Below, in pieces: positions 39,829 to 64,000 of a stretch of DNA of 64,000 nt. This stretch comes from Bacteroidota bacterium. Lineage in GTDB: Bacteria > Bacteroidota > Bacteroidia > Bacteroidales > Prolixibacteraceae. Position numbers and translations under genes: made by a program. Numbering within the stretch: the stretch's first letter is position 1; every line of letters begins with the position of its first letter. The DNA lies in contig JAHEYT010000029.1 in the NCBI GenBank assembly GCA_023251455.1, positions 62,001 through 126,000 of the forward strand, written 5' to 3'. The notes beneath the pieces are model-generated. The model was given only the letters and a program-made list of their open reading frames with translations. It made no database searches and was not told where the DNA came from.

Positions 39829-40398
39829 ATGGACGATCAGGATATTTGGGGCAAAATTGTGAATGGTGATGTTGAGGCATTGCGCATTTTGCACGACAAA
39901 TATTATTATCCAATGTGGTTGTGGGCCAGTAAATACTCAAGGAATAAAACCCTTGCAGAAGAATTGGTTTCCGATTGTTTCATCAGGCTGTGGGAACGCC
40001 GGAAACACATTCTCATCGAAAAGTCGTTGAAATCGTACCTTTACCTCATGCTCCGTAATCAGATTGTGAGCCATGCCCGAAAATCGAAACACGAATTGTT
40101 GATTGGTTCCGATAATCTTCCGGATATGCCCGATGAGGTGGCCATTTCTAATCAGGATTATTATGCCGCACTTTATCGGGCTATTCAAAAAATTCCGGAG
40201 CAACGGCGCAAAATACTCGAACTTGCCGCTTTCGAATCGTTTACCTACAAAGAAATTGCTGCCCAGCTTGATATTTCGGTCAATACGGTGAAAACCCAGA
40301 TGGGGCGTGCTTATCAGTTTTTAAAAGAAGAACTTGATCCAAAAAACTTTTTACTATTCCATCTTTTCAGAAAAAAGGACGTTTTAAAATCGAGATAG
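39829..40398 (+). CDS. ECF RNA polymerase sigma factor (locus 2)
   Basis: 189 residues. Region 2 (LHDKYYYPMWLWASKYSRNKTLAEELVSDCFIRLWERR) and region 4 (IPEQRRKILELAAFESFTYKEIAAQLDISVNTVKTQMGRAYQFLKEEL) are complete. It belongs to the FecR-regulated group that switches on susCD operons. A good promoter lies upstream; fecR follows 220 bp downstream, across a stretch with no ORF and no obvious promoter. Together with the set at 19224 this gives two independent sigma/anti-sigma pairs in the window. Confidence 0.92.
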   Translation: MDDQDIWGKIVNGDVEALRILHDKYYYPMWLWASKYSRNKTLAEELVSDCFIRLWERRKHILIEKSLKSYLYLMLRNQIVSHARKSKHELLIGSDNLPDMPDEVAISNQDYYAALYRAIQKIPEQRRKILELAAFESFTYKEIAAQLDISVNTVKTQMGRAYQFLKEELDPKNFLLFHLFRKKDVLKSR

Positions 40399-40618
40399 AC
40401 ACGTCGACAATGAAAAACAGCTGAACCCACGACTGGAAAACTCATGCTGTCAATACATCGTAAGCCGATTCCACAACCTGCACAATCAATCGGTGGCTTT
40501 CCGAATAATCATCAATCAGAATTTCTTGCTTATCCCCGAAAAATTGTTGAAAAATCTTCAACACCTGTCACCCTCTTCATCCTGAATTTGCGTCATTGGT
40601 AATATACATCCGTTTGAA

Positions 40619-41620
40619 ATGAATAAGAACAACATAGATTTTTGGGATTTAATAGCCGGTAAACTGCATGGAGAGCTCAACTCCGATGAAAATGCTTTAC
40701 TGGAAAAGGGGCTGGAAGACCAACAAAATCAGCATTTGTTTTCAAAAGGTGAAAAGATTCATCAGGGCTTGAATGAAGCAAAACGTCTGCAGGATTCGGA
40801 TAAGTCAGGTTCATGGGAAATCATCGAAAAAAAGGTTCGTACCCGGAGACTTGGAATTTACACCAGTACATTTATGAAATATGCTGCAATCCTGATTGTT
40901 GCATTTGTTTCGGGATTATTCGTACATACCCTGTTAACCGATCGGAATCAGGCCGTTCAGTATGCTGAAGTCGAAGTAATGTATGGTCAACTAGGTCATT
41001 TATTTTTGTTCGATGGTACTGAAGTTTGGTTGAATTCGGGCACAAAGTTTAAATATCCGAATAAGTTCAATCAAAACGAACGAAATGTATTTATGGAAGG
41101 AGAAGCGTACTTTAAAGTTGCTCCGAATAAACATCTTCCTTTTAAAGTAAAAACCGGCAAACTTGAGGTTGAAGTTTTAGGAACCTCTTTCAACCTGTCA
41201 GCATATCCATCCGAGTCATCTCAATCTGTATTTCTGGACGAAGGAAAAGTTCAGATCAATGACTTGGTTGGGGATAAAATAGGAGAGATATCTCCAGGTC
41301 AGATGGCCGTAAAAACTGATGGAACCCCAACGATTCAGGTAAAAAGTGCTGATTCGTATTTCTATACCAGCTGGAAAGATGGCAAAATCACATTCGATTC
41401 AGAAAAGCTGAGCGAAATTGCAAAAAAGATGGAACGTTGGTACAACGTCGAAATCAGGTTTGATCAGGAGGCATTGAAAGACTTTAATTTCTCAGGAACA
41501 ATTCTGCGCAACAAGCCAATCGATCAGACGATTATGGCCATGGAGCTCCTGGCTCCGATAAGGTTTCACTATCAGGTGCGACCCAAAGAAAAAAATCTAA
41601 TTACAATTGTGGGGAAATAA
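40619..41620 (+). CDS. FecR-family anti-sigma factor (locus 2)
   Basis: 333 residues. Cytosolic sigma-binding part (NNIDFWDLIAGKLHGELNSDE), one transmembrane helix at about 86-104 (YAAILIVAFVSGLFVHTLL), periplasmic FecR domain (LFLFDGTEVWLNSGTKFKYP, GEAYFKVAP, LGTSFNLSAYP) and a C-terminal DUF4974-type domain (MERWYNVEIRF). It holds the ECF sigma inactive until SusC reports substrate. Distinct in sequence from the locus 1 FecR, so the pairs should not cross-talk freely. 105 bp separate it from susC. Confidence 0.92.
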   Translation: MNKNNIDFWDLIAGKLHGELNSDENALLEKGLEDQQNQHLFSKGEKIHQGLNEAKRLQDSDKSGSWEIIEKKVRTRRLGIYTSTFMKYAAILIVAFVSGLFVHTLLTDRNQAVQYAEVEVMYGQLGHLFLFDGTEVWLNSGTKFKYPNKFNQNERNVFMEGEAYFKVAPNKHLPFKVKTGKLEVEVLGTSFNLSAYPSESSQSVFLDEGKVQINDLVGDKIGEISPGQMAVKTDGTPTIQVKSADSYFYTSWKDGKITFDSEKLSEIAKKMERWYNVEIRFDQEALKDFNFSGTILRNKPIDQTIMAMELLAPIRFHYQVRPKEKNLITIVGK

Positions 41621-41640
41621 TATGAAGAACTAAACAGGAG

Positions 41641-41682
41641 ATTAAAAGAAGGCGATGAAATGATTGGACCCATTTCACCGCC
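41641..41682 (-). terminator. Hairpin with minus-strand U tract between fecR and susC (locus 2)
   Basis: GGCGATGAAATG pairs with CATTTCACCGCC (11 of 12 pairs, 8-nt loop; 41651-41682). On the minus strand the stem is followed by TTCTTTTAAT, a U-rich tail; on the plus strand by CGACAATAA, which is not. Same position and polarity as the hairpin in locus 1 but unrelated sequence. Confidence 0.45.
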
Positions 41683-41725
41683 CGACAATAAAACAATAAT
41701 TGTTTCATTTTAACTACACAAACTT

Positions 41726-44700
41726 ATGAAAAAACATCGAGAATGTAATAGCCATGTCTGGCTGTTAAAAAAACTATTACGGATTATGAAACTTACAAGC
41801 TTTTTAATTCTTGCCTTTGTTATCAGCGTAAATGCTTCAGTCTATTCGCAATCGACTAAGCTGAGTATCAATGTGAAGAATGGGACATTTGTCGAAGTGC
41901 TGAAACAAATTGAAAGTCAATCAGAGTTTTATTTCTATTACAACAATGATGAGATAAGGGAACTCGAAGGTGTAAGCATTAGTCTCGAAAAGAAGGAGAT
42001 TAAGGAAGTTCTGGAAAAATTACTTAGCGGTACAAATCTGGAATACAAAATTATTGATCGTTATATCGCATTAAAGAAAAAGTCGGAATCAGGAGCCGAA
42101 TCGGTTATTCAGCAGCAAAAATCGATTTCTGGTAAAGTTATCGATTCAGGTGGAAATCCGTTGCCGGGAGTTACCGTTGTGGTTAAAGGAACCACAAATG
42201 GTACAATCACCGATATTGATGGAAATTATACCATATCTAAAATTGCTGATAATTCGACCTTGCAATTTTCATTTGTAGGGATGAAATCGCAGGATGTAGT
42301 AATCGGTAACCAAAAATCGATTAATGTTACTTTGGCTGATGAAACGATTGGAATTGAAGAAGTTGTAGCTATTGGTTACGGAACTGTAAAGAAAAGTGAT
42401 TTGGCCGGTGCTATTTCTCAGGTGAAATCTTCCGACATGGAAAACCGTACAATTGTTCGTGCTGAACAGGCTTTACAGGGTAAAACCGCAGGAGTTCAGG
42501 TTATACAGACTTCGGGTGCACCAGGCGCAAATCCAACGATCCGCGTCCGCGGTTTCAGCTCCAATTCGTCATCCGATCCTCTTTATGTTGTCGATGGATT
42601 GAGAACGAGCAATATCAGTTCTATCGATCCAAACAATATTGAATCGATGGAAGTACTGAAAGATGCTGCTTCAGCTGCGATTTACGGTGCCCAGGCGGGT
42701 AATGGTGTTGTTTTGATTACCACCAAAAAAGGTAAAAAAGGCGAAGGTAAAGTCAACTACGATTTCCAATATGTAACCAATAAACTGGTTCGAATTCCGG
42801 AAGTAATGAATGCTCAGGAGTATGTAAATTACATGACTGAGGCCAACTTCATTACTCCTGCCGAAATTTCAGCCTTATGGGACGGAAAAACCGATACCAA
42901 TTGGGCGGATGTGGCTTTCGAAAATTCGATCATGCAAAAACACAACCTTAGCTTTATGGGTGGAAACGATCGCGGATCTTACAATCTTTCGTTATCGTAC
43001 CTCGACCAGAATGGTATTGTCAGGGGAGATGCTGATGTGTACAGCCGGGTTACTGCAATGGCCAATGCGGATTACAACATCAATAGCTGGCTGAAAGTTG
43101 GTACAAACAACATTGTTGAACGCTGGAAAAGTAAATCGGTTTCCGAAAACTCAGAATATGGTTCGCTTCTGGCTTCAGTATTGACCATGGATCCGCTCAC
43201 TCAACCCTATTTTAGTGCCGACAACCTGCCTCAATACATGAAAGATCTGGCTAACTCAGGAAAAACATTGATGAAAGACGAAACCGGTAGATATTACGGG
43301 TTATCGCAGATCTATAAATCCGAAAACGTACATCCATTGTTGATGAGAGATCGCACCAATACCAAAAACGAAGGGGCGAGTGTTATGGGAACCATTTATG
43401 CCGAAATGAAACCGGTTAAAAACCTGACCATAACTTCAAAATTGGGTTATCGCGGCGCTTTCACGGGAGCCTATAACTTCAACTACGTCTATTATGCCAA
43501 CGACGTGACCAAGAACGATCAGATCAACGTAGGCCGCACGAATGCCAACAGCATTTATTACCAATGGGAAAATTTCGCAAACTATTTGTACACCCACGGA
43601 AGTCACAGTTTGACAACCATGTTGGGTATTTCATATTCCGAACCTTATTCAACCACGGTTACTGCCAGCGGTAACGCAATTACCAAAGACGATCCGCTTT
43701 ACCGTGATTTGAACTATCTGACTGCCACAGCAACAAAAACAGTTTCAGGCGGATATTCAAATGTTGGCCGTCAATTCTCATATTTCGGTCGTTTTATCTA
43801 CAATTATGGCAACAAATACGTGTTGCAAGGTTCGTTACGCCGCGACGCCAGCGACTTATCCATTCTTCCTGAAGGAAGCCGTTGGGGAACATTCCCGGCA
43901 CTTTCGGCTGGTTATACCATTTCTAACGAAGATTTTTTTCCGAAAAACACTCCAATCAACAAGATGAAATTACGTGCCAGCTGGGGACAAAACGGTAGTA
44001 CCGGACCTCTTGGTGGTTTTGCGTATAGGGCTTCTATAGGTACCATTGGTTCTTATCCATACAACGAGGCGATTGCTTACCAGATTGCTTCGGCCCCTTC
44101 TACATTGAGTAATCCTCAATTAAAATGGGAAACTTCTGAACAGTTAGATTTTGGTGTTGATGTTCAGGCATTTAATAATCGTTTGTCATTAGGACTTGAC
44201 TATTTCGAGAAGAAAACCAAAGATTTACTTGTAACCGTTACTCCTCCTTACGAAACCGGAGTAGCTTCAACCGCTGTTAATGCCGGAAATGTTTCGAATA
44301 AAGGTTTTGAATTTGAATTGAACTGGAGTGAAAAAATCAGGGATTTTAGCTACAGCATTCATGGGAATATTGCTACACTCAATAATGAAGTGACCTACCT
44401 TGATCCAAGTATTTCAAGGATTAACGGTGCTTCATACCATACACAGGCCGGGATCACCGCTTTCGAAAAAGGATTTCCTGTTTGGTACATGCGTGGTTAC
44501 AAACTTGCAGATATCGACGATGCTACCGGAGACCCGGTGTTTGTTGATACCAACAAAGACGGTTCGATTACCGACGACGATAAAGTCATGTTAGGTAGTG
44601 GTATCCCTGATTTTACTTATGGTCTGACTCTGAATGCTTCGTACAAAAACTTCGATTTCACAGTTTTCGGAACAGGTTCGCAAGGAAATGAGGTGTTTAA

Positions 44701-45091
44701 CTGCCTGACCCGTATTGATAGACCAAGAGGAAATAAACTTGCGCTGTTTTACAACGACCGTTGGACACCGACGAATAAAACGGCTTCAAAACCACGCCCA
44801 AATGCCAATGGCGAAGATAAATACTGGATCAGCAGCGATGATGTGATGAACGGCTCTTTCTTCAAGATCAAACAAATACAGTTGGGGTATTCACTCCCGA
44901 AGAATTTGTGCAAAAAAGCATACATGAGCAGCATGAGGATTTACTCTTCATTGGAAGATGCCTTTATCTTCACTTCTTATCCGGGGTTCGACCCCGAAGC
45001 TTCTGCCGGATCAACAACCCTTCTTGGTGTGGATAAAGGAGCTTATCCAAACTCAATGAAAGTGCTTTTTGGTATCAATGTAACATTTTAA
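41726..45091 (+). CDS. SusC-type TonB-dependent transporter with STN domain (locus 2)
   Basis: 1121 residues. Signal peptide to about residue 42, preceded by a charged stretch; the ATG at 41786 (MKLTSFLILAF) is a plausible alternative start. STN domain ~45-115 (KLSINVKNGTFVEVLKQIE), carboxypeptidase-regulatory domain ~130-205 (ISGKVIDSGGNPLPGVTVVV), TonB box EEVVAIGYG, plug domain (VVDGLRTSNISSIDPNNIESM, IYGAQAGNGVVLITT) and a C-terminal barrel ending LFGINVTF. It takes up the ligand of locus 2. The barrel differs widely from the locus 1 paralogue, while the N-terminal 220 residues are similar. susD follows by 13 bp. Confidence 0.95.
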   Translation: MKKHRECNSHVWLLKKLLRIMKLTSFLILAFVISVNASVYSQSTKLSINVKNGTFVEVLKQIESQSEFYFYYNNDEIRELEGVSISLEKKEIKEVLEKLLSGTNLEYKIIDRYIALKKKSESGAESVIQQQKSISGKVIDSGGNPLPGVTVVVKGTTNGTITDIDGNYTISKIADNSTLQFSFVGMKSQDVVIGNQKSINVTLADETIGIEEVVAIGYGTVKKSDLAGAISQVKSSDMENRTIVRAEQALQGKTAGVQVIQTSGAPGANPTIRVRGFSSNSSSDPLYVVDGLRTSNISSIDPNNIESMEVLKDAASAAIYGAQAGNGVVLITTKKGKKGEGKVNYDFQYVTNKLVRIPEVMNAQEYVNYMTEANFITPAEISALWDGKTDTNWADVAFENSIMQKHNLSFMGGNDRGSYNLSLSYLDQNGIVRGDADVYSRVTAMANADYNINSWLKVGTNNIVERWKSKSVSENSEYGSLLASVLTMDPLTQPYFSADNLPQYMKDLANSGKTLMKDETGRYYGLSQIYKSENVHPLLMRDRTNTKNEGASVMGTIYAEMKPVKNLTITSKLGYRGAFTGAYNFNYVYYANDVTKNDQINVGRTNANSIYYQWENFANYLYTHGSHSLTTMLGISYSEPYSTTVTASGNAITKDDPLYRDLNYLTATATKTVSGGYSNVGRQFSYFGRFIYNYGNKYVLQGSLRRDASDLSILPEGSRWGTFPALSAGYTISNEDFFPKNTPINKMKLRASWGQNGSTGPLGGFAYRASIGTIGSYPYNEAIAYQIASAPSTLSNPQLKWETSEQLDFGVDVQAFNNRLSLGLDYFEKKTKDLLVTVTPPYETGVASTAVNAGNVSNKGFEFELNWSEKIRDFSYSIHGNIATLNNEVTYLDPSISRINGASYHTQAGITAFEKGFPVWYMRGYKLADIDDATGDPVFVDTNKDGSITDDDKVMLGSGIPDFTYGLTLNASYKNFDFTVFGTGSQGNEVFNCLTRIDRPRGNKLALFYNDRWTPTNKTASKPRPNANGEDKYWISSDDVMNGSFFKIKQIQLGYSLPKNLCKKAYMSSMRIYSSLEDAFIFTSYPGFDPEASAGSTTLLGVDKGAYPNSMKVLFGINVTF

Positions 45092-45104: not shown

Positions 45105-46685
45105 ATGAGAACAAAATTCATATATATCATTAGTCTTGCAATAGGACTAACCTTTTTTACCTCGTGTGAAGATCAACTGATTGTCGATCAGCAGGGAGCT
45201 ACTTCGGTAGAAAGTTTTTACAAAACAGATGAAGATGCCAATCAGGCTATTGCTGCCGTGTATTTTCAATGGCGGTCTCAGGCATACAACGATTTTTTTC
45301 TGAAAAACTGTCTTTCGGACGACATTAACAGCGGTGGTGGTTCCAGAGGGGACAATGCTATTCTGGAACAGATAAACGAATACAAGTTTAGTCCGTCAAA
45401 CAGTACGGCCAGCGGGTATTTCAGCGGAATGTACACGCTGATTTACAGGGCGAACCTGGTAATCAATAACTTTACTGAGGAGTCGGCGGCCAAGAAAAAA
45501 GCTATTGCCGAAGCTAAAATTGCACGTGCATGGGCTTATTTCAACCTGGTAACGTTGTGGGGACCGGTTCCATTGGTAACTAAACCATTGTCTCCAAGCG
45601 AATATCAGCAGCCAAACGGTGTAATCACAGAGCTATGGGCATTGGTCGAAAAAGACCTGAATGAAGCGATTTCAGCCGGTGTTCTTCCTGAAAAATCAAG
45701 CGTTTCTGATAAATCAATCGGTGCAAAACTGACAAAGCAATTCGCAATGGCTCTGTTGGGTAAATCGCAGCTTTTTGAAGGCAAAAATGCTGAAGCTGCA
45801 ACGACTTTAAAAGCTGTGATCACTTCAGGTAAATATGCACTGATTTCAGATTACGGTAATGTGTTGAGGAAAGTGGAGGATTTTGGCACAGAAAACCTTT
45901 TCGAAGTAAACTCGATTAACGACGGAGATAACGCATTCAATCAGGGAACTACTATTCTGGGTACTATGTACGGATGGAGAAGCGATAAGATGTCGTTGTT
46001 TGGCTATTACATGAAAGCACACGACATGTACCCAGCTGGATGGGGATTCGCCAATCCTACAAAAAACCTTTACGATGCTTTTGTTGAAATGGAGGGAACT
46101 GATGGCTACCGGTTGAACAATACGCTCAAAACATACGATCAGATCAAAACGATTGGTGCGCCAATAGCGCCTGTGTCAATTAATGTTGGAACTAGTCTAT
46201 ACGGTCACGAGGGGTATTTTAGTTGGAAATTCAGATTCATTGGATCAGAAGTGATTACCAATTCATGGGGTTATGCTACGGATAACAATTACCGGATTAT
46301 GCGCTATGCTGAAGTTTTATTGCTTGCTGCTGAAGCTTGCCTTCAATCGGGCGATCAGGCTAGTGCATTGAACTACATTAATCAAATCAGAACACGAGCA
46401 AAATTACCAGTTCTTTCATCTATTACTCTGAATGACATTAAGAAGGAAAAACGCCTCGAACTTTGTATGGAAATGGTACGATTCCAGGATTTGGTCCGTT
46501 GGGGTGATGCGGCAACCGCATTGGCTAACCGCGGAAAACAAGTTCCAATTTTTAATGGATCAACAATTTCATATCCATATTCGAACGAAACCTATGGATT
46601 TAAGACTGGTAAGAATGAATTACTTCCATTCCCCGAACATGAAATGGGTGTAAACCAAAATCTGGTACAAAATCCAGGATGGTAA
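45105..46685 (+). CDS. SusD/RagB-type glycan-binding lipoprotein (locus 2)
   Basis: 526 residues with lipobox cysteine at 21 (LTFFTSCED). Helical TPR-like scaffold (IARAWAYFNLVTLWGPVPLVTKPL; LTKQFAMALLGKSQLFEG), RYAEVLLLAAEACLQSG and KKEKRLELCMEMVRFQDLVRWGD are SusD-family features; it ends NLVQNPGW. It captures substrate at the surface and closes over the SusC barrel. A hairpin lies in the 103-bp gap before the amidohydrolase gene. The ligand is probably an esterified glycoside, given the enzymes that follow (inference). Confidence 0.94.
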   Translation: MRTKFIYIISLAIGLTFFTSCEDQLIVDQQGATSVESFYKTDEDANQAIAAVYFQWRSQAYNDFFLKNCLSDDINSGGGSRGDNAILEQINEYKFSPSNSTASGYFSGMYTLIYRANLVINNFTEESAAKKKAIAEAKIARAWAYFNLVTLWGPVPLVTKPLSPSEYQQPNGVITELWALVEKDLNEAISAGVLPEKSSVSDKSIGAKLTKQFAMALLGKSQLFEGKNAEAATTLKAVITSGKYALISDYGNVLRKVEDFGTENLFEVNSINDGDNAFNQGTTILGTMYGWRSDKMSLFGYYMKAHDMYPAGWGFANPTKNLYDAFVEMEGTDGYRLNNTLKTYDQIKTIGAPIAPVSINVGTSLYGHEGYFSWKFRFIGSEVITNSWGYATDNNYRIMRYAEVLLLAAEACLQSGDQASALNYINQIRTRAKLPVLSSITLNDIKKEKRLELCMEMVRFQDLVRWGDAATALANRGKQVPIFNGSTISYPYSNETYGFKTGKNELLPFPEHEMGVNQNLVQNPGW

Positions 46686-47860: not shown

Positions 47861-49498
47861 ATGACTGCTATGAAACGAATATTCTTTTTCTTGTTAACTA
47901 TTGTCCCATGGACTTTATTTGCTCAGTTGGACCCCAATTTGCCAACCGTGAAAATTGCCAATGGAACGTTGGAAGGTGTATCGAGTTCGGGTATCAATAT
48001 TTTTAAGGGAATTCCCTATGCTCAACCGCCAGTAGGTGAGTTGCGCTGGAAAGCCCCTCAAGTGGTTAAAAACTGGGATGGAATTCGCAAAGCCGACCAG
48101 TTTGGTCCGCGTGCCATGCAAAAAGCGCTATTCGGCGATATGTCTTTCCGGTCAAACGGAGTGAGCGAGGATTGCCTTTACCTCAATGTTTGGACTCCAG
48201 CCAAGTCATCTACCGAAAAATTACCAGTCCTGGTTTATTATTATGGCGGTGGTTTTATGGCTGGCGATGGTTCTGAACTTCGTTACGATGGCGAAAGTAT
48301 GTCGCGTAAAGGGATTGTTTCAGTCACTGTCAATTATCGTCTGGGCATATTTGGTTTTTTTGCTCATCCTGAATTAAGTAAAGAATCTCCCTATCACGGT
48401 TCGGGGAATTACGCACTTTTAGACCAAAACGCCGCCCTCAAATGGGTACAACAGAACATTGCAGCTTTTGGTGGCGACCCCAAACGGGTAACCATTGCCG
48501 GCGAGTCAGCTGGTTCTATTTCTGTAAGCGCGCAAATGGCCTCACCATTATCAAAGAACCTGATTGCCGGAGCCATTGGCGAAAGCGGTGCGATGATCAA
48601 TCCAACTTTGGCTCCAGTTACATTGGCTGAAGGTGAACAAGCCGGGGTTAAATTTGCTGCCAAAATTAACGCCGCATCACTGGCCGATCTTCGTGCTATT
48701 CCAGCCGAAAAGTTGCTCGACGATGCCTCACAAAGAGATGTTCCCCGGTTTGCCTCTACTGTTGACGGTTATTTCTACCCAAAACTACCTGTTGAACTTT
48801 ACGCTGCTGGTGAGCAGGCACATGTTCCATTATTGGTTGGCTGGAATTCAGAAGAAATGAATTTCCGTATGGTGATGGGTGCCAATGAGCCAACTCCGGA
48901 AAACTACCTGAAGGCTTTACAAACACTTTATGGAGATAAGGCCAACGAAGTGCTGAAATATTATCCGGGTTCTACCAACGACGAAGTAAAACTATCGGCA
49001 ACAGCTTTGGCTGGCGACAGGTTTATCGCATACAGTACCTGGAAATGGTATGATTTGTGTTTTCAGACCGGGAAAAGCCCGGTATATCGGTATTTCTATG
49101 AGCGTCCTCGTCCGGCAATGCGACCAGAGATGGGCAATGCTGTCGCCGGTCTTGCGGGTGGAGTAATTAAAGATTCAGGAGCAAATGCGCCAAAAGCTCC
49201 AGCTGCAACCGGAGCTGTTCACTCAGCCGAAATTGAATACGCTTTGGGTAATCTCCCGACCAACCGGGTTTACGATTGGCAGCCTGATGATTATAAAGTA
49301 TCGGCCATCATGCAGGAATTCTTTGCCAATTTCATTAAAACAGGCAATCCAAACGGAATAGGTTTACCGGTATGGCCGGCAGCCAATAGCGGAAACTCAG
49401 TAAAGGTTATGCACATCAATGTGAATAGCAGCGCTGAAGTTGAAAAAAACAGAGATCGTTATTTATGGCTTGATCAACAGTATATTATAAAAAAATGA
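47861..49498 (+). CDS. Secreted type-B carboxylesterase 1
   Basis: 545 residues with a Sec signal peptide (to about 21); a second ATG at 47870 is equally possible. Family signatures are IFKGIPYAQPPVGELRWKAP, EDCLYLNVWTP and the nucleophile elbow AGESAGS with Ser216; His454 in AVHSAEIEYAL is the catalytic histidine. The acid residue should follow the VDGYF region. Type-B esterases cleave carboxylic esters of bulky alcohols. It is one of three such enzymes in this locus (others at 53772 and 58865), each with a different export signal. A Gly/Ala-rich loop (~425-450) is specific to this copy. Confidence 0.92.
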   Translation: MTAMKRIFFFLLTIVPWTLFAQLDPNLPTVKIANGTLEGVSSSGINIFKGIPYAQPPVGELRWKAPQVVKNWDGIRKADQFGPRAMQKALFGDMSFRSNGVSEDCLYLNVWTPAKSSTEKLPVLVYYYGGGFMAGDGSELRYDGESMSRKGIVSVTVNYRLGIFGFFAHPELSKESPYHGSGNYALLDQNAALKWVQQNIAAFGGDPKRVTIAGESAGSISVSAQMASPLSKNLIAGAIGESGAMINPTLAPVTLAEGEQAGVKFAAKINAASLADLRAIPAEKLLDDASQRDVPRFASTVDGYFYPKLPVELYAAGEQAHVPLLVGWNSEEMNFRMVMGANEPTPENYLKALQTLYGDKANEVLKYYPGSTNDEVKLSATALAGDRFIAYSTWKWYDLCFQTGKSPVYRYFYERPRPAMRPEMGNAVAGLAGGVIKDSGANAPKAPAATGAVHSAEIEYALGNLPTNRVYDWQPDDYKVSAIMQEFFANFIKTGNPNGIGLPVWPAANSGNSVKVMHINVNSSAEVEKNRDRYLWLDQQYIIKK

Positions 49499-50815: not shown

Positions 50816-50859
50816 GTCAATGGGAAAATATGAAACATTGTTTTCCCATTGACTTTTTT
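50816..50859 (+). terminator. Strong intrinsic terminator inside the esterase cluster
   Basis: GTCAATGGGAAAA and its exact complement form a 13-bp stem with a 12-nt loop followed by six T. It begins 13 bp after the esterase stop and overlaps an upstream extension of the next open frame, so that gene most likely starts at 50881. Confidence 0.88.
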
Positions 50860-50880
50860 CTACTGACTAATAACCAAACG

Positions 50881-52564
<1,684 letters not shown>

Positions 52565-52573: not shown

Positions 52574-53731
<1,158 letters not shown>

Positions 53732-55369: not shown

Positions 55370-56536
55370 ATGAAAAAAATTCTGTTATTCATTTTCTCTC
55401 TTGCATTCTTTGCAGGGACACAAGCACAGGAACTTTCCAATTTTATGAACCAGAAACCTATCGTTTCACCAGAAATTGGAGTAAAAGAAGTAACCTTTAG
55501 GTTAATGGCTCCAAATGCCGACACCGTTAAAATTAATGGTGGATTTACGCCAACCGTTAAGATGAAAACCTCATTCGGAAACATGGATGTTCCGAGTAGT
55601 GTAAATCTCAAGAAAGACGACAAAGGTCTTTGGTCAATCACCCTGCCGCTTCCGGAACCCGAACTTTATACCTACAGTTTCATTGTTGACGGTGTTGCCC
55701 TTAATGATCCGACCAACATTTTTATGCAACGCGACGGTACCCGTTACTTGAGCGTTCTGCTTGTTCCGGGTAAAAAAACCGAGAATTATTCCGAGGCCAA
55801 ACAACGGGGCAATCTGCAACAGGTTTGGTACGACTCACAAACTATTGGACTTAACCGCCGAATGTTTGTTTACACGCCGTACGGTTACGAAACCAGCGGA
55901 AAAAGCTATCCGGTGCTTTACCTTTTGCATGGAGCCGGTGGCGACGAAGATGCATGGAGCACGATGGGGCGTGCCCGTCAAATTTTGGATAACCTGATTG
56001 AAAAAGGTCAGGCTGTTCCGATGATTTGTGTGATGCCAAATGGAAATCCAAATCAAATGGCAGCAAAGACTACTATGCTTCCTGAAAGTGAATTCGATTT
56101 TAGGGATCCGTCGAAACAGAACCTTTACATAAATAGCATTGCAAAAGACATTGTCCCTTACATCGAAAAGAATTACCGGGTAATTGCCGACCCCAATCAC
56201 CGTGCCATTTCAGGTCTTTCAATGGGTGGAGGACACACCATTGCTTTGGCTAATGAATATCCTGGCATGTTCCAATATATCTGTCCTTTAAGCATGGGTT
56301 TATGGAATGAGCAACCGGATATCGACGCAAAACTGCAGGGACTTAAAAAGGCCGGTTACAAGATGTACTGGCTGGCTTGCGGCAATACCGATTTTGTTTA
56401 TGAAAGTGCCAAAAAGCTGGATGCAAAATTAACTGAAAACGGGTTGAAGCATACCTTCTTTGTAACCGAAGGCGGTCATACCTGGGCCAACTGGCGGGTA
56501 TATCTGAACACTATGGCACCACAATTATTTAAATAG
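55370..56536 (+). CDS. Secreted CBM48 + esterase-D/CE1-like hydrolase 4
   Basis: 388 residues. Signal peptide to ~20; CBM48-like domain ~28-125 (VTFRLMAPNADTVKINGGF, ELYTYSFIVDG); hydrolase domain with [15 protein letters not shown], Ser284 in GLSMGG, probable Asp in NTDFVY and His370 in GGHTWANW. It is the closest relative of the copy at 49610 (shared IVSPE, TPTVKMKT and GHTWxNWRVYL), pointing to duplication within the locus. The GH3 gene follows by 21 bp, so de-esterification and deglycosylation are co-expressed. Confidence 0.91.
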   Translation: MKKILLFIFSLAFFAGTQAQELSNFMNQKPIVSPEIGVKEVTFRLMAPNADTVKINGGFTPTVKMKTSFGNMDVPSSVNLKKDDKGLWSITLPLPEPELYTYSFIVDGVALNDPTNIFMQRDGTRYLSVLLVPGKKTENYSEAKQRGNLQQVWYDSQTIGLNRRMFVYTPYGYETSGKSYPVLYLLHGAGGDEDAWSTMGRARQILDNLIEKGQAVPMICVMPNGNPNQMAAKTTMLPESEFDFRDPSKQNLYINSIAKDIVPYIEKNYRVIADPNHRAISGLSMGGGHTIALANEYPGMFQYICPLSMGLWNEQPDIDAKLQGLKKAGYKMYWLACGNTDFVYESAKKLDAKLTENGLKHTFFVTEGGHTWANWRVYLNTMAPQLFK

Positions 56537-56557: not shown

Positions 56558-58834
56558 ATGAAAATAGCAGGATTGACAATCGTTATAGCGATGTTACTGA
56601 TTTTAACAAACCAGGTGAATGCCCAAAAGCATATATCATCGTTACTTCAATACGACAAACAGATTGATGGCATTATCAGCCAAATGACTCTGGAAGAAAA
56701 AGTAAACATGCTTCATGCCAAGTACATGTTTGTTTCAGCGGGTGTTGAACGACTGGGGATTGCCGACATGAGATATGCTGACGGACCATTTGGTGTCCGT
56801 GAGGAAATGCAGCCCAACGGATGGATGCCATTGAACTGGGAAAAAGATAAAGCAACATTTTTTCCAACAGGTTCGGCGTTGGCAGCAACCTGGAGCCCCG
56901 AACTGGCTTATAGTTACGGTACCGGAATGGCTCGCGAAACTCGGTTACGCGGGAAAGATATGATACTTGGACCAGCCATCAATATCCAACGGATTCCAAC
57001 CGGAGGAAGAACGTATGAATATTTAAGTGAAGATCCGTTTCTAAGTGCGCAATTAGCTGTTGGTTACACTAAAGGTGCGCAAGACAACGGAGTGGCGGTT
57101 TGTGTGAAACATTTTGCGCTGAACAATCAGGAAAACAACCGCGGAACAGTAAATGTAATTGTAGGTGAACGAGCTATGCGCGAGATTTATCTTCCTCCTT
57201 TTCGGGCAACCGTTGAGGAAGGTGACGCTTATGGATTTATGTCGGCCTACAACAAAGTAAACGGTTGGTGGTGTGCCGAAAATGACATCCTGCTCAACAA
57301 AATTCTTCGCAACGAATGGGGCTTTGCCGGAATGGTAATTTCCGACTGGGGTGGAACACATAGCACTGTAGGATCAGTAAAAAGCGGGCTGAATGTAGAA
57401 ATGCCAGATAAAAAATTTCTCGGACAGGCATTGATTGATTCGGTAAAAGCCGGAAAGGTTTCCGAAGAAATCATAAATCTGCGTGTTCGCGAGATTTTGC
57501 GTGTCAGGTTGGCCATCAAGCCAATTCCTGAAAAAGAAGCAAATACAGAAATGACCTCGCAACCGGCTCAGCAGAAAATAGCTTATGAAGTGGCCAGCAA
57601 ATCCATTGTTTTGCTGAAAAACGATGGTGTACTTCCATTACAGTTGAAAAACAAGCCTGTAATTGCAGTAATTGGTGCCAATGCAACTCAAATAATGGGG
57701 TCAGGCGGAATGGGCGCTGGTGTGAAAACATTGTATGAGGTTACTCCGCTTGAAGGATTTAAAAACCGGATTGGCGATAAGGCAGAAATCATTTTTGCAC
57801 AAGGATACGATCCTGTAGTTTTCAGTTTTGCCGATATGTTCAAGAAAAAAACACCTGAAGAAATTGAACAGAAAGCTCGTGAAAAGGCAGTGATAGCTTT
57901 GAAACTTACGAAAGAAGCGCTTGAAGTGGTGTCAAAAGCTGATATTGTTCTCTTTGTTGGCGGTAATAACCGCGCCGTTGAAACAGAAGGAAGTGACCGG
58001 AAAGATATTTTACTTCCTTCAGGGCAGGATGAACTGATTAAAAAAATTGCAGCAGTGAACCCGAACATTGTTACAGTACTGACAAGTGGCGCTCCAAACG
58101 ATTTGAAGGTGGTGAAACAAGTATCAAAAGCACTGCTTATTTCGTGGTTTAATGGTACCGAAGGTGGAAATGCTTTAGCCGATGTGCTTGTTGGAAATAT
58201 TTCGCCAAGCGGACGTTTACCGTTCACTTTGCCTGTTAATCTGGAGGATTCACCAGCTTATGCACTGGGGAATTACCCTCAGGGAGGAAAAAATGCTGAC
58301 GTGTTTGCCAACCTTGTTTCAGAAACCGAAGCAGTGGAAAAACCAAAAGCGGAAGCGATTAAAAGTAACGATCCGAATACCGCTCTTTATTCCGAAGAAT
58401 CGCTGGTAGGTTATCGTTGGTTCGACACAAAAAAAATCAATGTAATGTATCCGTTTGGTTATGGTCTCACTTACACCACTTTTGAATATGCCAACCTAAA
58501 AACTGATAAGAAAAAATATGGCAAAGACGATGTGATCGCGATTTCAGTTGAATTGAAAAATTCCGGTAAAGTGGCTGCTGATGAGGTTGCTCAGGTGTAT
58601 GTACACCGCATCAATCCTTCGGTTGAATGGCCACAAAAAGAACTCAAGGCATTCTCAAGGGTATCGCTTAATCCAGGCGAAAGCAAGACTGTAACACTCG
58701 AAATCCCGGTAAAAAATCTGAAATACTGGAATGAAACAAAACAAGCATGGGATGATGATCTTTGTAATATGGAGATACAGGTTGGCGCCTCTGCCGGTGA
58801 GATAAAACTGAAAAAAGAAATCAATCTTAAATAA
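56558..58834 (+). CDS. Secreted GH3 glycosidase 1
   Basis: 758 residues with a signal peptide (to ~22). The GH3 TIM barrel has YADGPFGVR, TYEYLSEDP, VKHFALNNQE and the nucleophile Asp263 in VISDWGG; the second domain has VASKSIVLLKNDG and the probable acid/base Glu477 in ETEGSDRKD; a C-terminal fibronectin-like domain follows (YVHRINPSVEWPQKELKAF). GH3 enzymes of this build are beta-glucosidases or beta-xylosidases acting from the non-reducing end. Sitting directly after four esterases, it probably trims de-acylated glycoside in the periplasm. The exact sugar cannot be told. Confidence 0.93.
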   Translation: MKIAGLTIVIAMLLILTNQVNAQKHISSLLQYDKQIDGIISQMTLEEKVNMLHAKYMFVSAGVERLGIADMRYADGPFGVREEMQPNGWMPLNWEKDKATFFPTGSALAATWSPELAYSYGTGMARETRLRGKDMILGPAINIQRIPTGGRTYEYLSEDPFLSAQLAVGYTKGAQDNGVAVCVKHFALNNQENNRGTVNVIVGERAMREIYLPPFRATVEEGDAYGFMSAYNKVNGWWCAENDILLNKILRNEWGFAGMVISDWGGTHSTVGSVKSGLNVEMPDKKFLGQALIDSVKAGKVSEEIINLRVREILRVRLAIKPIPEKEANTEMTSQPAQQKIAYEVASKSIVLLKNDGVLPLQLKNKPVIAVIGANATQIMGSGGMGAGVKTLYEVTPLEGFKNRIGDKAEIIFAQGYDPVVFSFADMFKKKTPEEIEQKAREKAVIALKLTKEALEVVSKADIVLFVGGNNRAVETEGSDRKDILLPSGQDELIKKIAAVNPNIVTVLTSGAPNDLKVVKQVSKALLISWFNGTEGGNALADVLVGNISPSGRLPFTLPVNLEDSPAYALGNYPQGGKNADVFANLVSETEAVEKPKAEAIKSNDPNTALYSEESLVGYRWFDTKKINVMYPFGYGLTYTTFEYANLKTDKKKYGKDDVIAISVELKNSGKVAADEVAQVYVHRINPSVEWPQKELKAFSRVSLNPGESKTVTLEIPVKNLKYWNETKQAWDDDLCNMEIQVGASAGEIKLKKEINLK

Positions 58835-58864
58835 ACCTGACTTTTACAAACTAAAACCTGTAAC

Positions 58865-60532
58865 ATGAAAACCAACAGACGTAACTTTTTCCAGACATTG
58901 GGTGCAGGAGCTGCCGGACTCGGATTAACATCCATGCCATTTATTTCCAATGCAGCAAATTCGCCAAAGTCGGACAACGATGACCAGCAATTATTGGTTG
59001 GGGATAATATTGCCATTGCCGAAACCAAGTACGGAAAGGTAAAAGGTTTTATCCTGAGGGGGATTTATAACTACCGTGGAATTCCTTACGGAGCTGATAC
59101 TTCAGGCAAAAATCGTTTCATGCCGCCGCAACCGCCCAAACCCTGGACAACTACTTTGCCAACCGTTTGGTGGGGTAATACTGCTCCGCAAATTATGGAC
59201 AACCGGTATGCCAACGCCTATTCGTCGTTTGTCGACCATTGGAACTATGACGATGTAAGCGAAGATTGCCTGAAGCTGAATATCTGGACACCGGCAGTTG
59301 ATACAAAAAAACGTCCGGTTTTGGTTTGGCTGCATGGTGGGGGTTACACCAACGGAAACGGCATTGAGCAGGACGGTTACGATGGTGAAAACCTCTGCCG
59401 CAAAGGAAATATTGTGTTTGTTTCAATTAATCATCGTTTGGGACCGATTGGGTTCAGTAATCTTTCTGGTGTTGGCGGTTCAAAATATGCTGATTCAGGA
59501 AATGTTGGAGCATTGGATATGGTTGCTGCACTGGAATGGGTTCGCGATAACATTGCAAATTTCGGTGGAGATCCGGGCAATGTTACCATCATGGGGCAAT
59601 CGGGTGGTGGTGCCAAAGTTTGTGTGGTGGCCGCCATGCCAAAAGCAAAAGGATTGTTCCACAAAGCTGTTCCATTGAGTGGATCGACCATTAAAGCAAT
59701 GGATCAAACGGCTTCTCAAAAGCTGGGCGAATATATCCTGAAAGAAGCTGGCCTGAGCGCATCAGAAGTCGACAAACTTCAGGAAATGCCATGGAAAGAT
59801 TACCTCGTTCTGGCCAATAAAGCTGCCCAGAAATTTGCTGCCGAAAATGCCGGAACTGGTGTGCGTGGTGGTTTTAGTCCGGTTGCTGACGGAACAAACA
59901 TTCCCAAAGGACAGTTCTTTGCCGATGCATCAGGTCTTTCATCCGATGTTCCGATGATGATCAGCACTACTTTCCACGAATGGGGAATGGCGCGTACCAT
60001 GCCCGAAATGGAAATGATTACCCGGGAAAAGGCAATTAATATGCTGAAAGAACGTGCCGGTATGGGTGGCGGTTTGGGCGACAAAGCTGCTGCTGCTTAC
60101 GATGCCTATGCTAAAGCATTTCCAAAAGCTAAACCAATTGAAGTTATGACCCTGGTGAGCAGCAACCGCAAAGGTGCCATCGATACTGCCAATGCAAAGG
60201 CTGTGCAGAAAGCTCCGGTTTATCTGGCTTGGTTTGGCTGGGAACCACCCATGTTCGACAACCGGATGCGTGCTTTCCATTGTTTGGATATCTGCTTCTG
60301 GTTTGCCAATACCGATTTGATGCTGACCCACACGGGTGGTGGTAAACGTCCGCGTTCATTATCCGAAAAAATGTCGGGAGCATTGCTTCAATTCATGAAA
60401 ACCGGAAATCCAAATAAAGGCGGACTTCCGGAGTGGAAAGCCTATACTTCAGAAAAAGGCGAAACCATGATTCTGAACGATCAACCGGAACTGAAAAGCG
60501 ATCCGGACAGGGAAGCCCGGAAATTGATCTAA
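58865..60532 (+). CDS. Type-B carboxylesterase 3 with Tat-like signal
   Basis: 555 residues. The N-terminus NRRNFFQTLGAGAAGLGLTS is a twin-arginine-type signal, unusual for a cofactor-free esterase. Signatures: YRGIPYGADTSGKNRFMPPQ, EDCLKLNIWTP, nucleophile Ser246 in MGQSGGG (not GxSAG as in the other two) and a probable catalytic His472 in RAFHCLDICFWF, replacing the usual HSAE. It is a divergent branch of the family and may prefer an aromatic or bulky acid. It lies 30 bp after GH3 enzyme 1 and is followed by a 283-bp gap, so it probably ends that transcript. Confidence 0.9.
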   Translation: MKTNRRNFFQTLGAGAAGLGLTSMPFISNAANSPKSDNDDQQLLVGDNIAIAETKYGKVKGFILRGIYNYRGIPYGADTSGKNRFMPPQPPKPWTTTLPTVWWGNTAPQIMDNRYANAYSSFVDHWNYDDVSEDCLKLNIWTPAVDTKKRPVLVWLHGGGYTNGNGIEQDGYDGENLCRKGNIVFVSINHRLGPIGFSNLSGVGGSKYADSGNVGALDMVAALEWVRDNIANFGGDPGNVTIMGQSGGGAKVCVVAAMPKAKGLFHKAVPLSGSTIKAMDQTASQKLGEYILKEAGLSASEVDKLQEMPWKDYLVLANKAAQKFAAENAGTGVRGGFSPVADGTNIPKGQFFADASGLSSDVPMMISTTFHEWGMARTMPEMEMITREKAINMLKERAGMGGGLGDKAAAAYDAYAKAFPKAKPIEVMTLVSSNRKGAIDTANAKAVQKAPVYLAWFGWEPPMFDNRMRAFHCLDICFWFANTDLMLTHTGGGKRPRSLSEKMSGALLQFMKTGNPNKGGLPEWKAYTSEKGETMILNDQPELKSDPDREARKLI

Positions 60533-60798: not shown

Positions 60799-60815
60799 AC
60801 TAAAATGTTTAATAT

Positions 60816-63266
60816 ATGAGACTTAAATGGCTTCGTTCAACAATGGTTTTTACCATTGTGTTTTCCCTGTTAACATTAGCTTTTCAGGTTAAAACCAGTA
60901 GCGCTAAATCTACTGATGGACAAAAAATTCAGCAGATTATCTCTAAAATGACACTTGATCAGAAGGCGCAATTGGTGATTGGAACAGGTATGTTCTTTGA
61001 AATGCCAGATTCGTTGAGAGCTAAAATGCCTCCGGGATTTGGCGGGGAAGGTGATGCAAAAGATCCGGTTTATAGCGAGATGGTGAAACGCATTCGCAAA
61101 TATTTGCCTGGATCGGCAGGTAATTCATCCGAATTTCTTGATTTAGGAATTGCAACACAGGTATTAAGCGATGGACCAGCCGGTTTACGCATTCAGCCAA
61201 CCAGAAAAGGCGATACAAAAACATACTATTGCACAGCATTCCCGATAGGTACTGTTTTAGCTTCGACATGGGATAATGACCTGATTTATAAAGTTGGTCA
61301 GGCCATGGGTAATGAGGTAAAAGAATATGGCTCCGACATTTTACTTGCTCCGGCTTTGAATATTCAGCGCGACCCGCTTTGTGGTCGTAATTTTGAGTAT
61401 TATTCTGAAGATCCGCTTGTCGCAGGAAAAACTGCTGCTGCAATGGTTAAAGGTATTCAGTCGAATGGTGTTGGAACCTCAATCAAACACTTTGCCGCCA
61501 ACAACTCCGAAACGAACCGTATGTCGGTAAATACAATCGTTAGCGAACGTGCTTTGCGCGAAATTTACCTGAAAGGTTTTGAAATTACCGTTAAAGAATC
61601 TCAACCCTGGACGGTAATGTCTTCGTACAACAAAATTAACGGCACATATACTTCAGAAAGTAATGATTTGCTGACGAAGATACTTCGCGATGATTGGAAA
61701 TTTCAGGGTTATGTAATGACCGACTGGGGTGGTGGAAGTGATGTTGTTGCTCAAATGATTGCCGGAAACGACATGATCCAGCCAGGATCTCCCAAACAAA
61801 TTGAGGATATTGTCGCTGCTGTAAAAGCTGGAAAACTTGACGTGAAAATTCTGGATCGTAACGTTGGCCGCATTTTGTCTATCATGCTGAAAGCGCCTCG
61901 CTACAACAAATATCCGTATTCAAGTACTCCTGATTTAAAGGCACATGCCGAAGTTACCCGTCAGGTTGCAACCGATGGGATGGTTCTTTTGAAAAACGAC
62001 AAAAAAGCACTTCCAATCCCTTCAGGAGTTAAAAATATTGCAGCTTTTGGAAATACATCCTACGATTTTATTGCAGGTGGAAGCGGTAGCGGCGACGTGA
62101 ACGAAGCCTATACTATTTCGTTGTTCGAAGGTTTGACGAACAATGGCTATACTCCGGATGACGCGCTGACAACCGCATATAAAGCTTACATGGACCACAT
62201 GAGGGCTCAAATACCAAAATCAGACAATCCGTTAATGGCTTTGATGATGGGAAAACAGCCGATTCAGGAAATGACAGTTACCACTGATTTGGCGAAAAAA
62301 TTTGCTGAAAAATCGGATATTGCATTGATTACCATTGGTCGTAACGCAGGTGAAGGTCGCGACCGTACGGATACCGAAGGCGATTTTAGGTTGACTAAAA
62401 CCGAAAGAGAGATGATTAAGAATGTTTCCGAAGCTTTTCATGCTAAAGGGAAAAAAGCCATCGTAATCCTCAATGTCGCCGGAGTTATTGAAGTAGCCAG
62501 CTGGCGCGATATGGCTGATGCAGTTTTGGTTGCATGGCAGCCCGGACAGGAAGGCGGAAACTCTGTAGTTGATGTGTTGAGTGGAAAAGTGAATCCTTCA
62601 GGAAAATTGACTGCAACATTCCCTGTAAAATATGCTGATACTCCTTCAGCAAAAAATTTCCCTGGAGTTGCCGAAAAATCGGATAAAAAAGACGATGCCC
62701 CGGATCTTTCAGGATTCTCGTTTATGCGTCGTGTGCCATGGGAAATGGTTTACGAAGACGATATTTATGTGGGTTACCGCTATTATAATACGTTCAAAGT
62801 GCCTGTTGCTTACGAATTTGGTTATGGCTTGTCGTACACCACTTTCGATTACTCAAACCTGAAATCAAGTTCTTCTGCCTTTACTGGCAAACTCACCGTT
62901 TCGGTTGATGTAAAGAATACCGGATCTGTTGCAGGTCGCGAAGTTGTTCAGGTATACATTGGTGCACCTTCAGGAAAACTGAAAAAACCAGAAGAAACAC
63001 TGACTGCTTTTGGTAAAACCAGACTGTTACAACCTGGCGAATCGCAAACCATGAGTTTCAACATTGAAACGAAAGATTTCGCTTCATTCGACGAAGCTAC
63101 TTCTTCGTGGATTGCCGAAGCCGGTAATTATACCCTGAAAATTGGAGCTTCATCAACAGCCATCAAACAAACAGCAAGCTTTAAAATTGCCAGGGAATTG
63201 AATGCAGGTAAAGTAACCAGAGCTCTGACTCCTTCTCGCGAAATCAATAAACTGGTTTCGAAATAA
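60816..63266 (+). CDS. Secreted GH3 glycosidase 2
   Basis: 816 residues. Hydrophobic signal segment ~10-30. GH3 barrel motifs: LSDGPAGLRIQP, NIQRDPLCGRNFEYYSEDP, IKHFAANNSETNR and nucleophile Asp303 in VMTDWGG. The alpha/beta sandwich carries GEGRDR with Glu513 as probable acid/base; the C-terminal fibronectin-like domain follows GYGLSYTTFDYSNL. Longer than GH3 enzyme 1, with an extra helical segment around 440-490 rich in Met. Probably a beta-glucosidase-type exo-enzyme. It has its own leader with the dyad at 60764 and precedes a third GH3 gene by 124 bp. Confidence 0.93.
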   Translation: MRLKWLRSTMVFTIVFSLLTLAFQVKTSSAKSTDGQKIQQIISKMTLDQKAQLVIGTGMFFEMPDSLRAKMPPGFGGEGDAKDPVYSEMVKRIRKYLPGSAGNSSEFLDLGIATQVLSDGPAGLRIQPTRKGDTKTYYCTAFPIGTVLASTWDNDLIYKVGQAMGNEVKEYGSDILLAPALNIQRDPLCGRNFEYYSEDPLVAGKTAAAMVKGIQSNGVGTSIKHFAANNSETNRMSVNTIVSERALREIYLKGFEITVKESQPWTVMSSYNKINGTYTSESNDLLTKILRDDWKFQGYVMTDWGGGSDVVAQMIAGNDMIQPGSPKQIEDIVAAVKAGKLDVKILDRNVGRILSIMLKAPRYNKYPYSSTPDLKAHAEVTRQVATDGMVLLKNDKKALPIPSGVKNIAAFGNTSYDFIAGGSGSGDVNEAYTISLFEGLTNNGYTPDDALTTAYKAYMDHMRAQIPKSDNPLMALMMGKQPIQEMTVTTDLAKKFAEKSDIALITIGRNAGEGRDRTDTEGDFRLTKTEREMIKNVSEAFHAKGKKAIVILNVAGVIEVASWRDMADAVLVAWQPGQEGGNSVVDVLSGKVNPSGKLTATFPVKYADTPSAKNFPGVAEKSDKKDDAPDLSGFSFMRRVPWEMVYEDDIYVGYRYYNTFKVPVAYEFGYGLSYTTFDYSNLKSSSSAFTGKLTVSVDVKNTGSVAGREVVQVYIGAPSGKLKKPEETLTAFGKTRLLQPGESQTMSFNIETKDFASFDEATSSWIAEAGNYTLKIGASSTAIKQTASFKIARELNAGKVTRALTPSREINKLVSK

Positions 63267-63390
63267 TGATAAAATATTAGATTTAGTTGGTTTAGGAATG
63301 TAAATCCCTGCTTTTAACCTTTATGATTTTAAGTGGGGATTTTTAATATCCTGAAATTGATAATAAAATAAATTAAACCAATAACCCAAA

Positions 63391-64000
63391 ATGAAAAAAC
63401 TAACCAAATTTTGTGAATTGGGTCTGATTGCATCGTTGCTTTTAGGCTACGGATGTAGTCCAAAATGGACTGAAGCCGATAAAGGAACATTCAAACTTAT
63501 CAGCAACGAAGGTGGCCAAACCTTGGGCTATTCAGCAACTTCAGGAGTTCAAATTCTAACGGTCGACCGGTTGGCATTCAAAGACCTGAATAAAAACGGG
63601 AAACTCGATCCTTACGAAGACTGGCGTTTGCCGGTTGAGGAACGGGCTAAAAATCTGGCTTCATTGATGTCGGTTGAGCAGATTGCCGGATTAATGCTTT
63701 ACAGTGCTCACCAGGCTATTCCATCTGCCGCAGGTGGTCCGTTTGGTGCCAGTACTTACAATTCAAAACCTTTTAAGGAAAGCGGAGCTCAGTCGAGCGA
63801 TTTGACTGACCAGCAAAAGAAATTTTTAACCGACGACAACCTACGTCATGTGTTGGTTACCACACTTGAAAGTCCGGTTGTAGCTGCACAATGGAATAAC
63901 AACGCACAGGTGTTGGTCGAAGGAATCGGTCTTGGGATTCCGGCCAACAACAGTTCCGATCCACGACACGGAACCGATTCAAATGCAGAATATAACCTGG
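63391..64000 (+). CDS. GH3 glycosidase 3, lipoprotein (3' truncated by window edge)
   Basis: The first ~203 codons are present and the frame is still open at the window end. The start MKKLTKFCELGLIASLLLGYGC is a lipoprotein signal with Cys22. It then has a calcium-loop-like stretch (LAFKDLNKNGKLDPYEDWR) found at the head of one GH3 subgroup, the start of the barrel (VEERAKNLASLMSVEQIAGLML) and LGIPANNSSDPRHG, a conserved GH3 region. The catalytic residues lie beyond the edge. Same strand as, and 124 bp after, GH3 enzyme 2, so locus 2 continues to the right. Confidence 0.88.
   Translation, partial: MKKLTKFCELGLIASLLLGYGCSPKWTEADKGTFKLISNEGGQTLGYSATSGVQILTVDRLAFKDLNKNGKLDPYEDWRLPVEERAKNLASLMSVEQIAGLMLYSAHQAIPSAAGGPFGASTYNSKPFKESGAQSSDLTDQQKKFLTDDNLRHVLVTTLESPVVAAQWNNNAQVLVEGIGLGIPANNSSDPRHGTDSNAEYNL

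Follow-up and report, generated by a model that had tools for sequence, protein, structure and literature searches.

Loci built around SusC and SusD are usually read as polysaccharide systems, and arabinoxylan polysaccharide utilization loci (PULs) generally pair SusCD with several CE1 esterases. We analyzed an esterase-rich SusCD locus in a 64,000-nucleotide stretch (the window) of a Prolixibacteraceae draft genome (contig JAHEYT010000029.1; G000:C84:62001-126000 in our numbering). Arabinoxylan PULs with several CE1 feruloyl or acetyl esterases (for instance in Dysgonomonas mossii, PMC8040265), like the arabinoxylan locus of this same genome, share with the window locus the SusCD pair and the multiple CE1 enzymes. 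Unlike arabinoxylan PULs, the window locus has no GH43 or endo-xylanase and contains three type-B carboxylesterases, an MBL hydrolase, an amidohydrolase, three GH3 enzymes and a 3-keto-lyase-like module. The closest described relatives of that module follow a deglycosylation route of oxidation, elimination, hydration and reduction, and the Agrobacterium tumefaciens operon of this kind encodes a Gfo oxidoreductase together with a pair of isomerase-like proteins (extract of PMC10628242). The window module resembles the O-glycoside beta-eliminase (AtOGE), PUE puerarin and levoglucosan operons in having an oxidoreductase beside two sugar-isomerase-like proteins; it adjoins SusCD and esterases, neither of which is mentioned for those operons in the same extract of PMC10628242.

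The genes present, their order, the integrity of their catalytic motifs and their co-conservation are directly established. From these we infer a TonB/SusCD-driven locus that breaks down beta-glycosides of modest size bearing ester groups, acylated glycosides of plant (poly)phenols being the likeliest, a reading to which we give an even chance. Genes were assigned by Pfam matches above curated cut-offs, and those of the locus from 35664 to the window end are all on the + strand; export signals (TAT-like, lipoprotein-like and signal-like N-termini) were assigned by eye and not by a predictor. An ECF sigma factor (sigma70; 39829..40398) and a FecR anti-sigma factor (40619..41620) precede a SusC TonB-dependent transporter (41726..45091; TIGR04056, 805 bits against a cut-off of 368) and a SusD surface lipoprotein (45105..46685; PF07980 and PF14322). 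The adjacent SusC and SusD, with linked catabolic enzymes and a regulator, mark a SusCD-type utilization locus. There follow the amidohydrolase (Amidohydro_2, PF04909; 46753..47784, the ATG at 46789 being a likelier start than 46753), with a signal-like N-terminus, and then type-B carboxylesterase 1 (CEB1; 47861..49498; COesterase, PF00135, 375 bits), CE1-type esterase a (CE1a; 49610..50803; PF00756), a glyoxalase-II-like MBL hydrolase with a signal-like N-terminus (50830..51702; Lactamase_B, PF00753), CE1b (51713..52564; PF00756, with no CBM48 match), CE1c with CBM48 (52586..53731; PF00756 and PF02922), CEB2 with a lipoprotein-like N-terminus (53772..55307; PF00135), CE1d (55370..56536; PF00756), GH3 a (56558..58834), CEB3 with a TAT-like N-terminus (58865..60532; PF00135) and GH3 b (60816..63266). 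Both of these GH3 enzymes are beta-glucosidase-type and have an Fn3-like domain. The 5' part of GH3 c lies in the window (63391..64000); the gene, on whose full length the Pfam call was made, is complete on the contig (63391-65718; L010:4392-6719; 775 amino acids). All four CE1-type enzymes combine a PF00756 match above cut-off with a GxSxG nucleophile, GLSMG in each, and the other esterases carry GESAG, GQSAG and GQSGG. The MBL motif HIHVDH and the GH3 SDW/TDW motifs are also present. The preliminary description of this DNA had seen a Sus locus with seven esterases, an MBL hydrolase, an amidohydrolase and at least three GH3 enzymes, and Pfam confirmed every enzyme it named.

In order to compare loci, the amidohydrolase was used as a marker across 140 genomes of the family. 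A strong match (E < 1e-120) was detected in 21 genomes, the window's own included, and any match at 0.001 in 34. At least one homologue of a window esterase (blastp E up to 1e-5) was found within 7.5 kb of the amidohydrolase in all of the 20 other strong-match loci, and at least three in 17 of them, with some loci interrupted by contig ends. Applied to 20 control stretches, which were set at fixed spacing and clear of the locus in four of the genomes, the same criterion gave at least one esterase homologue in one case and at least three in none. Because of this difference from the controls the gene set is a recurring one and not the product of chance, and co-conserved clusters, for which the preliminary description had suggested a search, do occur. 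Five loci in the genus designated g5, which includes Draconibacterium, had six to seven esterase homologues within 7.5 kb (L054, L055, L056, L147 and L150), and the remaining g5 loci had one to five. A loose accumulation of generic hydrolases with no common substrate would be consistent with the CE1 order and copy number, which differ among genera. Such an accumulation is nevertheless highly improbable, given the 17 of 20 loci against none of 20 controls, the separation of the four CE1 orthologous groups, of which that of CE1a spans genera, and the pairing of the MBL gene with CE1a, which lay within 1 kb of each other in 19 of the 24 genomes holding the MBL gene at E < 1e-60 (CE1a was present at the threshold used in 21 of those 24).

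The same enzymes were found together where the marker has no strong match. Among 20 such CE1a loci, homologues at ≥50% identity were detected for GH3 in nine, for the window-type TIM barrel in seven, for type-B esterase in six, for the oxidoreductase in two and for MBL in eight, the last count being biased because nine of the loci were chosen for having MBL in the genome. In the controls at ≥50% identity, GH3 was found in 1 of 20 and MBL, TIM barrel, type-B esterase and oxidoreductase in 0 of 20 each. With OxR for the oxidoreductase and XylIso1, XylIso2 and XylIso3 for the TIM barrels at 37196, 38457 and 68909, compact versions of the locus read CE1a-MBL-GH3a (L152), XylIso1-CE1a-MBL-GH3a-CEB3-GH3c (L153), XylIso1-CE1a-MBL-GH3c (L177), OxR-XylIso1-CE1a-GH3c (L161) and CE1a-CEB-GH3a-CEB3-XylIso1-GH3c (L169), and L165 holds OxR, XylIso1, CE1a, CE1c, CEB2 and XylIso3. 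Judged by their gene content, these smaller versions preserve the same logic.

The contig continues 17.2 kb beyond the window end, and the reading was extended rightward, with Pfam-scanned genes reaching L010:18477 (window position 77476). Outside the Pfam scan were two short open reading frames before 77476 and two long ones at the contig end. No endo-glycanase, polysaccharide lyase, GH43, GH51 or GH67 was found among the genes scanned up to 77.5 kb. The same genome has a standard arabinoxylan locus on another contig, C39, with six GH43 genes, GH8, GH127, a fucosidase-family protein, SusC- and SusD-like genes, five CE1-type genes and one type-B esterase. The genome has 14 PF00756 places in total, of which four are in the window locus and 6 of the remaining 10 in the C39 locus; of 14 PF00135 places, 12 are above cut-off and five above 300 bits, three of those five being in the window locus. 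An arabinoxylan or pectin locus was rejected on the gene content scanned up to 77.5 kb and in view of the separate locus on C39. The preliminary description had reached the same view from the left part of this evidence, naming an endo-xylanase or pectinase farther right as what would overturn it, and the extension both completed the third GH3 gene and left the view standing.

The locus might instead be a helper that removes only esters and terminal sugars from imported oligosaccharides of acylated hemicellulose, with the endo-enzymes encoded elsewhere. CE1c has ferulic acid esterases (6rzn/8bbp) as its nearest PDB chains, all four CE1s found their best match in NF041944, through its feruloyl-esterase half and at scores well under the cut-off, and the C39 locus could supply fragments. 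We regard this possibility as unlikely, since GH43, GH51 and GH67 are missing among the genes scanned here, the SusCD pair of the window locus implies import of its own, and the CE1s encoded in the arabinoxylan locus belong to other subgroups. In a CE1 tree of 75 rows (a quick tree without bootstrap, with some long branches flagged), the window esterases fell into four separate groups with supports of 99 to 100 (a, 11 rows; b, 11; c, 5; d, 20), and the C39 esterases fell into none of these.

For type-B esterases 1 and 2 the nearest PDB chain is the fumonisin B1 esterase 8s6d, which does not imply that substrate, and for type-B esterase 3 it is 5a2g. In a scan for tannase subtype B (NF041556), type-B esterase 1 scored 18.6 bits against a cut-off of 300, and the other nine proteins scanned were not listed. 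The preliminary description had proposed a densely acylated or phenolic glycoside; the association of esterases with exo-acting GH3 enzymes recurs in related genomes, which favors the glycoside, and the tannase score and the nearness of two type-B esterases to fumonisin B1 esterase leave phenolic acyl groups a supposition. Its proposal that the MBL-fold and amidohydrolase enzymes may process lactone or aromatic parts is likewise conjectural. GH3 a is nearest 8va7 and 7ms2, and GH3 b is nearest 8idz and 2x40, all beta-glucosidase-type chains. GH3 c is likened, by overall sequence match only, to SN243 (7qe1; E 2.5e-64), which we take to be a beta-glucuronidase, and to 9ul7 (E 5.8e-91).

Directly upstream of the sigma factor lie a Gfo/Idh/MocA oxidoreductase with a TAT-like N-terminus, which is glycoside 3-dehydrogenase-like (35664..37079; PF01408), and two xylose-isomerase-like TIM barrels (PF01261), XylIso1 (37196..38146) and XylIso2 (38457..39506), the latter having the same H-x-H/D/H/E order and acting in this module, putatively, as a lyase or a hydratase. 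The best NCBIfam match of the oxidoreductase was the BT_2158_fam glycoside 3-dehydrogenase (NF058561; 133.4 bits). A structure model of XylIso1, built from a five-row alignment (mean pLDDT, 79.7; pTM, 0.78), was compared with known structures by Foldseek. Two uncharacterised Parabacteroides structures ranked first (3l23 and 3obe; 53 and 48% identity), ranks 4 to 7 were the 3-keto-beta-glucopyranoside-1,2-lyases AL1 of Alistipes and BT1 of Bacteroides thetaiotaomicron (8tcd/8tct/8tcr; 32 to 33% identity; TM, 0.85 to 0.86 on target length), and ranks 8 and 9 were AtOGE (17 to 18%). Residues H180, H182, D229, H255 and E288 of XylIso1 are invariant in all five aligned rows. The AtOGE site comprises His132, Asp163, His189 and, weakly, Glu233, with His134 catalytic and the first ligand replaced by Glu in C-glycoside enzymes (extract of PMC10628242). 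The active-site order H-x-H, D, H, E and the fold match are thus shared with AtOGE as that extract presents it, and by motif order (H-x-H on beta5, D on beta6, H on beta7, E on beta8) and TIM-barrel fold XylIso1 is placed with the 3-keto-beta-glucoside 1,2-lyases and O-glycoside eliminases. On the model, it is probably a 3-keto-beta-glucoside 1,2-lyase. Glycosides are therefore a better bet than polymers as substrates. The ligand spacings of XylIso3 (31, 26 and 42 or 44) are close to those of AtOGE (31, 26 and 44); the last spacing is shorter in XylIso1 and XylIso2 (33 or 35), and the first is 49 and 34, respectively.

The module also changes the limits of the locus. Among amidohydrolase loci of the same genus, those of G001, G011 and G014 have the oxidoreductase and XylIso1 immediately upstream, and those of G001 and G014 have XylIso2 there as well; farther afield, the oxidoreductase adjoins CE1a in L161 and L165. 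XylIso1 and CE1a lie within 20 kb of each other in 10 of 37 cases in genomes with both; the window's genus accounts for eight of these and one other genus for two. Going by these neighborhoods, the module belongs to the locus in the window's genus and sometimes elsewhere. On the right, GH3 c is followed by a 210-amino-acid protein with no Pfam or NCBIfam match (65943) and a DUF5916 protein (66606), which together span L010:6944-9841, and then by XylIso3 (68909-69751), the third of the TIM barrels that resemble xylose isomerase. The genes after it encode a histidine kinase (70482), then a peptidase-like protein, then a response regulator. In G001 and G014 the far end reaches the third TIM barrel as it does on the window's contig, on another contig in the case of G014. 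Judged from related loci, the unit spans about 35664-69751 instead of 39829-64000. The preliminary description thus had the core right at 39829-64000 and overlooked the oxidoreductase and 3-keto-lyase-like genes on both flanks.

Farther left (15693-35406), SusCD genes recur in a locus distinct from this one, accompanied by two sulfatases, a GH2 that has a LamG insert and a divergently oriented GH92. The possibility that the oxidoreductase and TIM barrels are part of this sulfatase/GH2 PUL was considered, and it seems unlikely because the SusCD set on the left is a different one in G001 and G014, yet both genomes keep the oxidoreductase and TIM barrels next to the esterases. Between GH92 and the oxidoreductase these two genomes hold different SusCD/GH2 sets (best SusC identities, 35 and 39%), and by this comparison the interval is a swap spot.

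The amidohydrolase itself had no PDB relative by sequence at 0.001 and no NCBIfam match. Its fold was ACMSD- and 5-carboxyvanillate decarboxylase (LigW)-like among the 50 Foldseek matches listed (low TM, 0.47 to 0.57 on query), and the dinuclear oxygenases AibH, SfbO and TruffO were placed next to ACMSD and LigW, ranks that suggested a dinuclear oxygenase. The AibH2/SfbO-type ligand set is D25, H27, H211, E265, D337 and H340 in AibH2 numbering. In the amidohydrolase, whose motifs were read without an alignment to AibH2, beta1 is DVHVH and there is no His three residues past the conserved Asp (YGTDFMMW), and these motifs lent the oxygenase reading no support. Beyond the family, a scan with one genome per species gave 62 loci, of which three without an amidohydrolase open reading frame of >50% identity were dropped. 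An esterase homologue was found within 7.5 kb in 32 of the 59 loci analyzed, and at least three in 14, with weak hits of about 25% identity counted. The window's clade in the amidohydrolase tree has 19 rows, 17 of which, the window included, have esterase neighbors; the two that do not are Lewinellaceae. A Marinilabiliaceae locus (A049; L070) has most of the enzymes, including DUF5916, and no SusCD within the 21 kb covered.

Elsewhere, the amidohydrolase was near PF07632 nucleoside-hydrolase-like proteins in 8 of the 59 loci (L076, L077, L078, L081, L082, L086, L093 and L097), near CitMHS transporters in five and near AtuA in three. These counts are by homology clusters, checked by Pfam for PF07632 in L076 and L077, for CitMHS in L080 and L117 and for AtuA in L080. 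L083 has PF01156 near the amidohydrolase. The L076 contig is labelled as a Thalassovita (Alphaproteobacteria) metagenome-assembled genome, and its amidohydrolase sits among Bacteroidota rows in the tree, a possible misbinning. In Alteromonas confluentis (L117:9956-15841), the amidohydrolase (58%) is found with a class III CoA-transferase, a beta-lactamase-family protein, CitMHS and an HMGL-like lyase, a cluster that looks like a compact acid-utilization operon. These neighbors are the sole hint that the amidohydrolase product may feed carboxylic-acid metabolism.

The same neighbors bear on the possibility that the acyl groups are not phenolic and that the ester bonds hold aliphatic acids instead (di- or tricarboxylate, hydroxymethylglutaryl or short acyl), with the amidohydrolase making or freeing a carboxylic acid for central metabolism. 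Fumonisin B1 esterase releases an aliphatic tricarboxylate, and the nearness of type-B esterases 1 and 2 to this enzyme would fit such esters, as would the CitMHS, AtuA, CoA-transferase and HMGL-like partners seen elsewhere. However, the window locus contains none of these partners, the specificity of type-B esterases is broad and 8s6d is no more than the closest chain with a solved structure, which makes aliphatic esters quite doubtful.

Several observations weigh against acylated plant glycosides as the substrate or against the locus as drawn here. CE1 and type-B esterases are promiscuous families, and the identity of the acyl groups is therefore not settled by family. No strong amidohydrolase match was found in 119 of the 140 family genomes, and in other clades than that of the window, esterase neighbors of the amidohydrolase are often missing, as in 8 of 10 Algoriphagus rows. 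The oxidoreductase scored 133 of the 750 bits needed for assignment as a glycoside 3-dehydrogenase and falls short of that assignment. The same-genus locus of G015 lacks the oxidoreductase, XylIso1 and XylIso2, and of 55 places with an XylIso1 homologue (E ≤ 1e-100), only 10 have CE1a at a distance of 20 kb or less.

If the locus does serve acylated plant glycosides, the sigma/FecR pair would sense the substrate via SusC and switch the locus on, and SusC and SusD would import it. The seven esterases, of distinct subgroups, would strip different acyl groups. GH3 a and b would cleave beta-glucosidic linkages, and GH3 c would act on a bond to glucose or to glucuronic acid. Alongside these hydrolases, the Gfo/Idh/MocA enzyme would oxidise the sugar at C3, XylIso1 would then expel the aglycone by beta-elimination, and the other TIM-barrel proteins may hydrate the resulting 2-hydroxy-3-keto-glucal. 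The MBL hydrolase may work with CE1a, its conserved partner, and the amidohydrolase may process a released acid or aglycone fragment. The scheme as a whole, SusCD import dedicated to small acylated plant glycosides, with esterases, two extracytoplasmic deglycosylation routes (GH3 and oxidative beta-elimination), and the released parts dealt with by the conserved pair of MBL hydrolase and esterase and by an unnamed clade of amidohydrolases, is put forward tentatively, at somewhat less than an even chance. Should it be correct, Bacteroidota would use SusCD import machinery also to take up small molecules with decorations, phenolic glycosides of plants among them, and there would be candidate substrates both for an MBL hydrolase that is paired with a particular esterase and for the PF04909 clade present in 59 loci.

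Each enzyme family in the locus is individually known. The preliminary description knew of no described locus of this composition, and no locus with this enzyme combination was found among the matches listed in the open-access literature searched, through titles and the beginnings of abstracts and with subscription papers largely outside it. This analysis adds a wider extent for the locus, the conserved pairing of MBL with CE1a, and a module that resembles 3-keto-lyases.

The draft genome totals 5.56 Mb in 104 contigs (completeness, 100; contamination, 5.09), and Rfam at gathering thresholds gave no match in the window. XylIso3 has relatives far from amidohydrolase genes: 77 places were found, and in none of the 20 tabulated does the amidohydrolase lie within 20 kb, the distance on the window's contig being 21 kb. 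Of 122 plasmid records with XylIso3 relatives, two were looked at. The Runella case has an adjacent Gfo/Idh/MocA gene, and the Parabacteroides case is uninformative. The latter record, a Parabacteroides distasonis "plasmid" (NZ_OY725790.1; L172), carries valyl-tRNA ligase, ruvC and gdhA and looks like a chromosome fragment.

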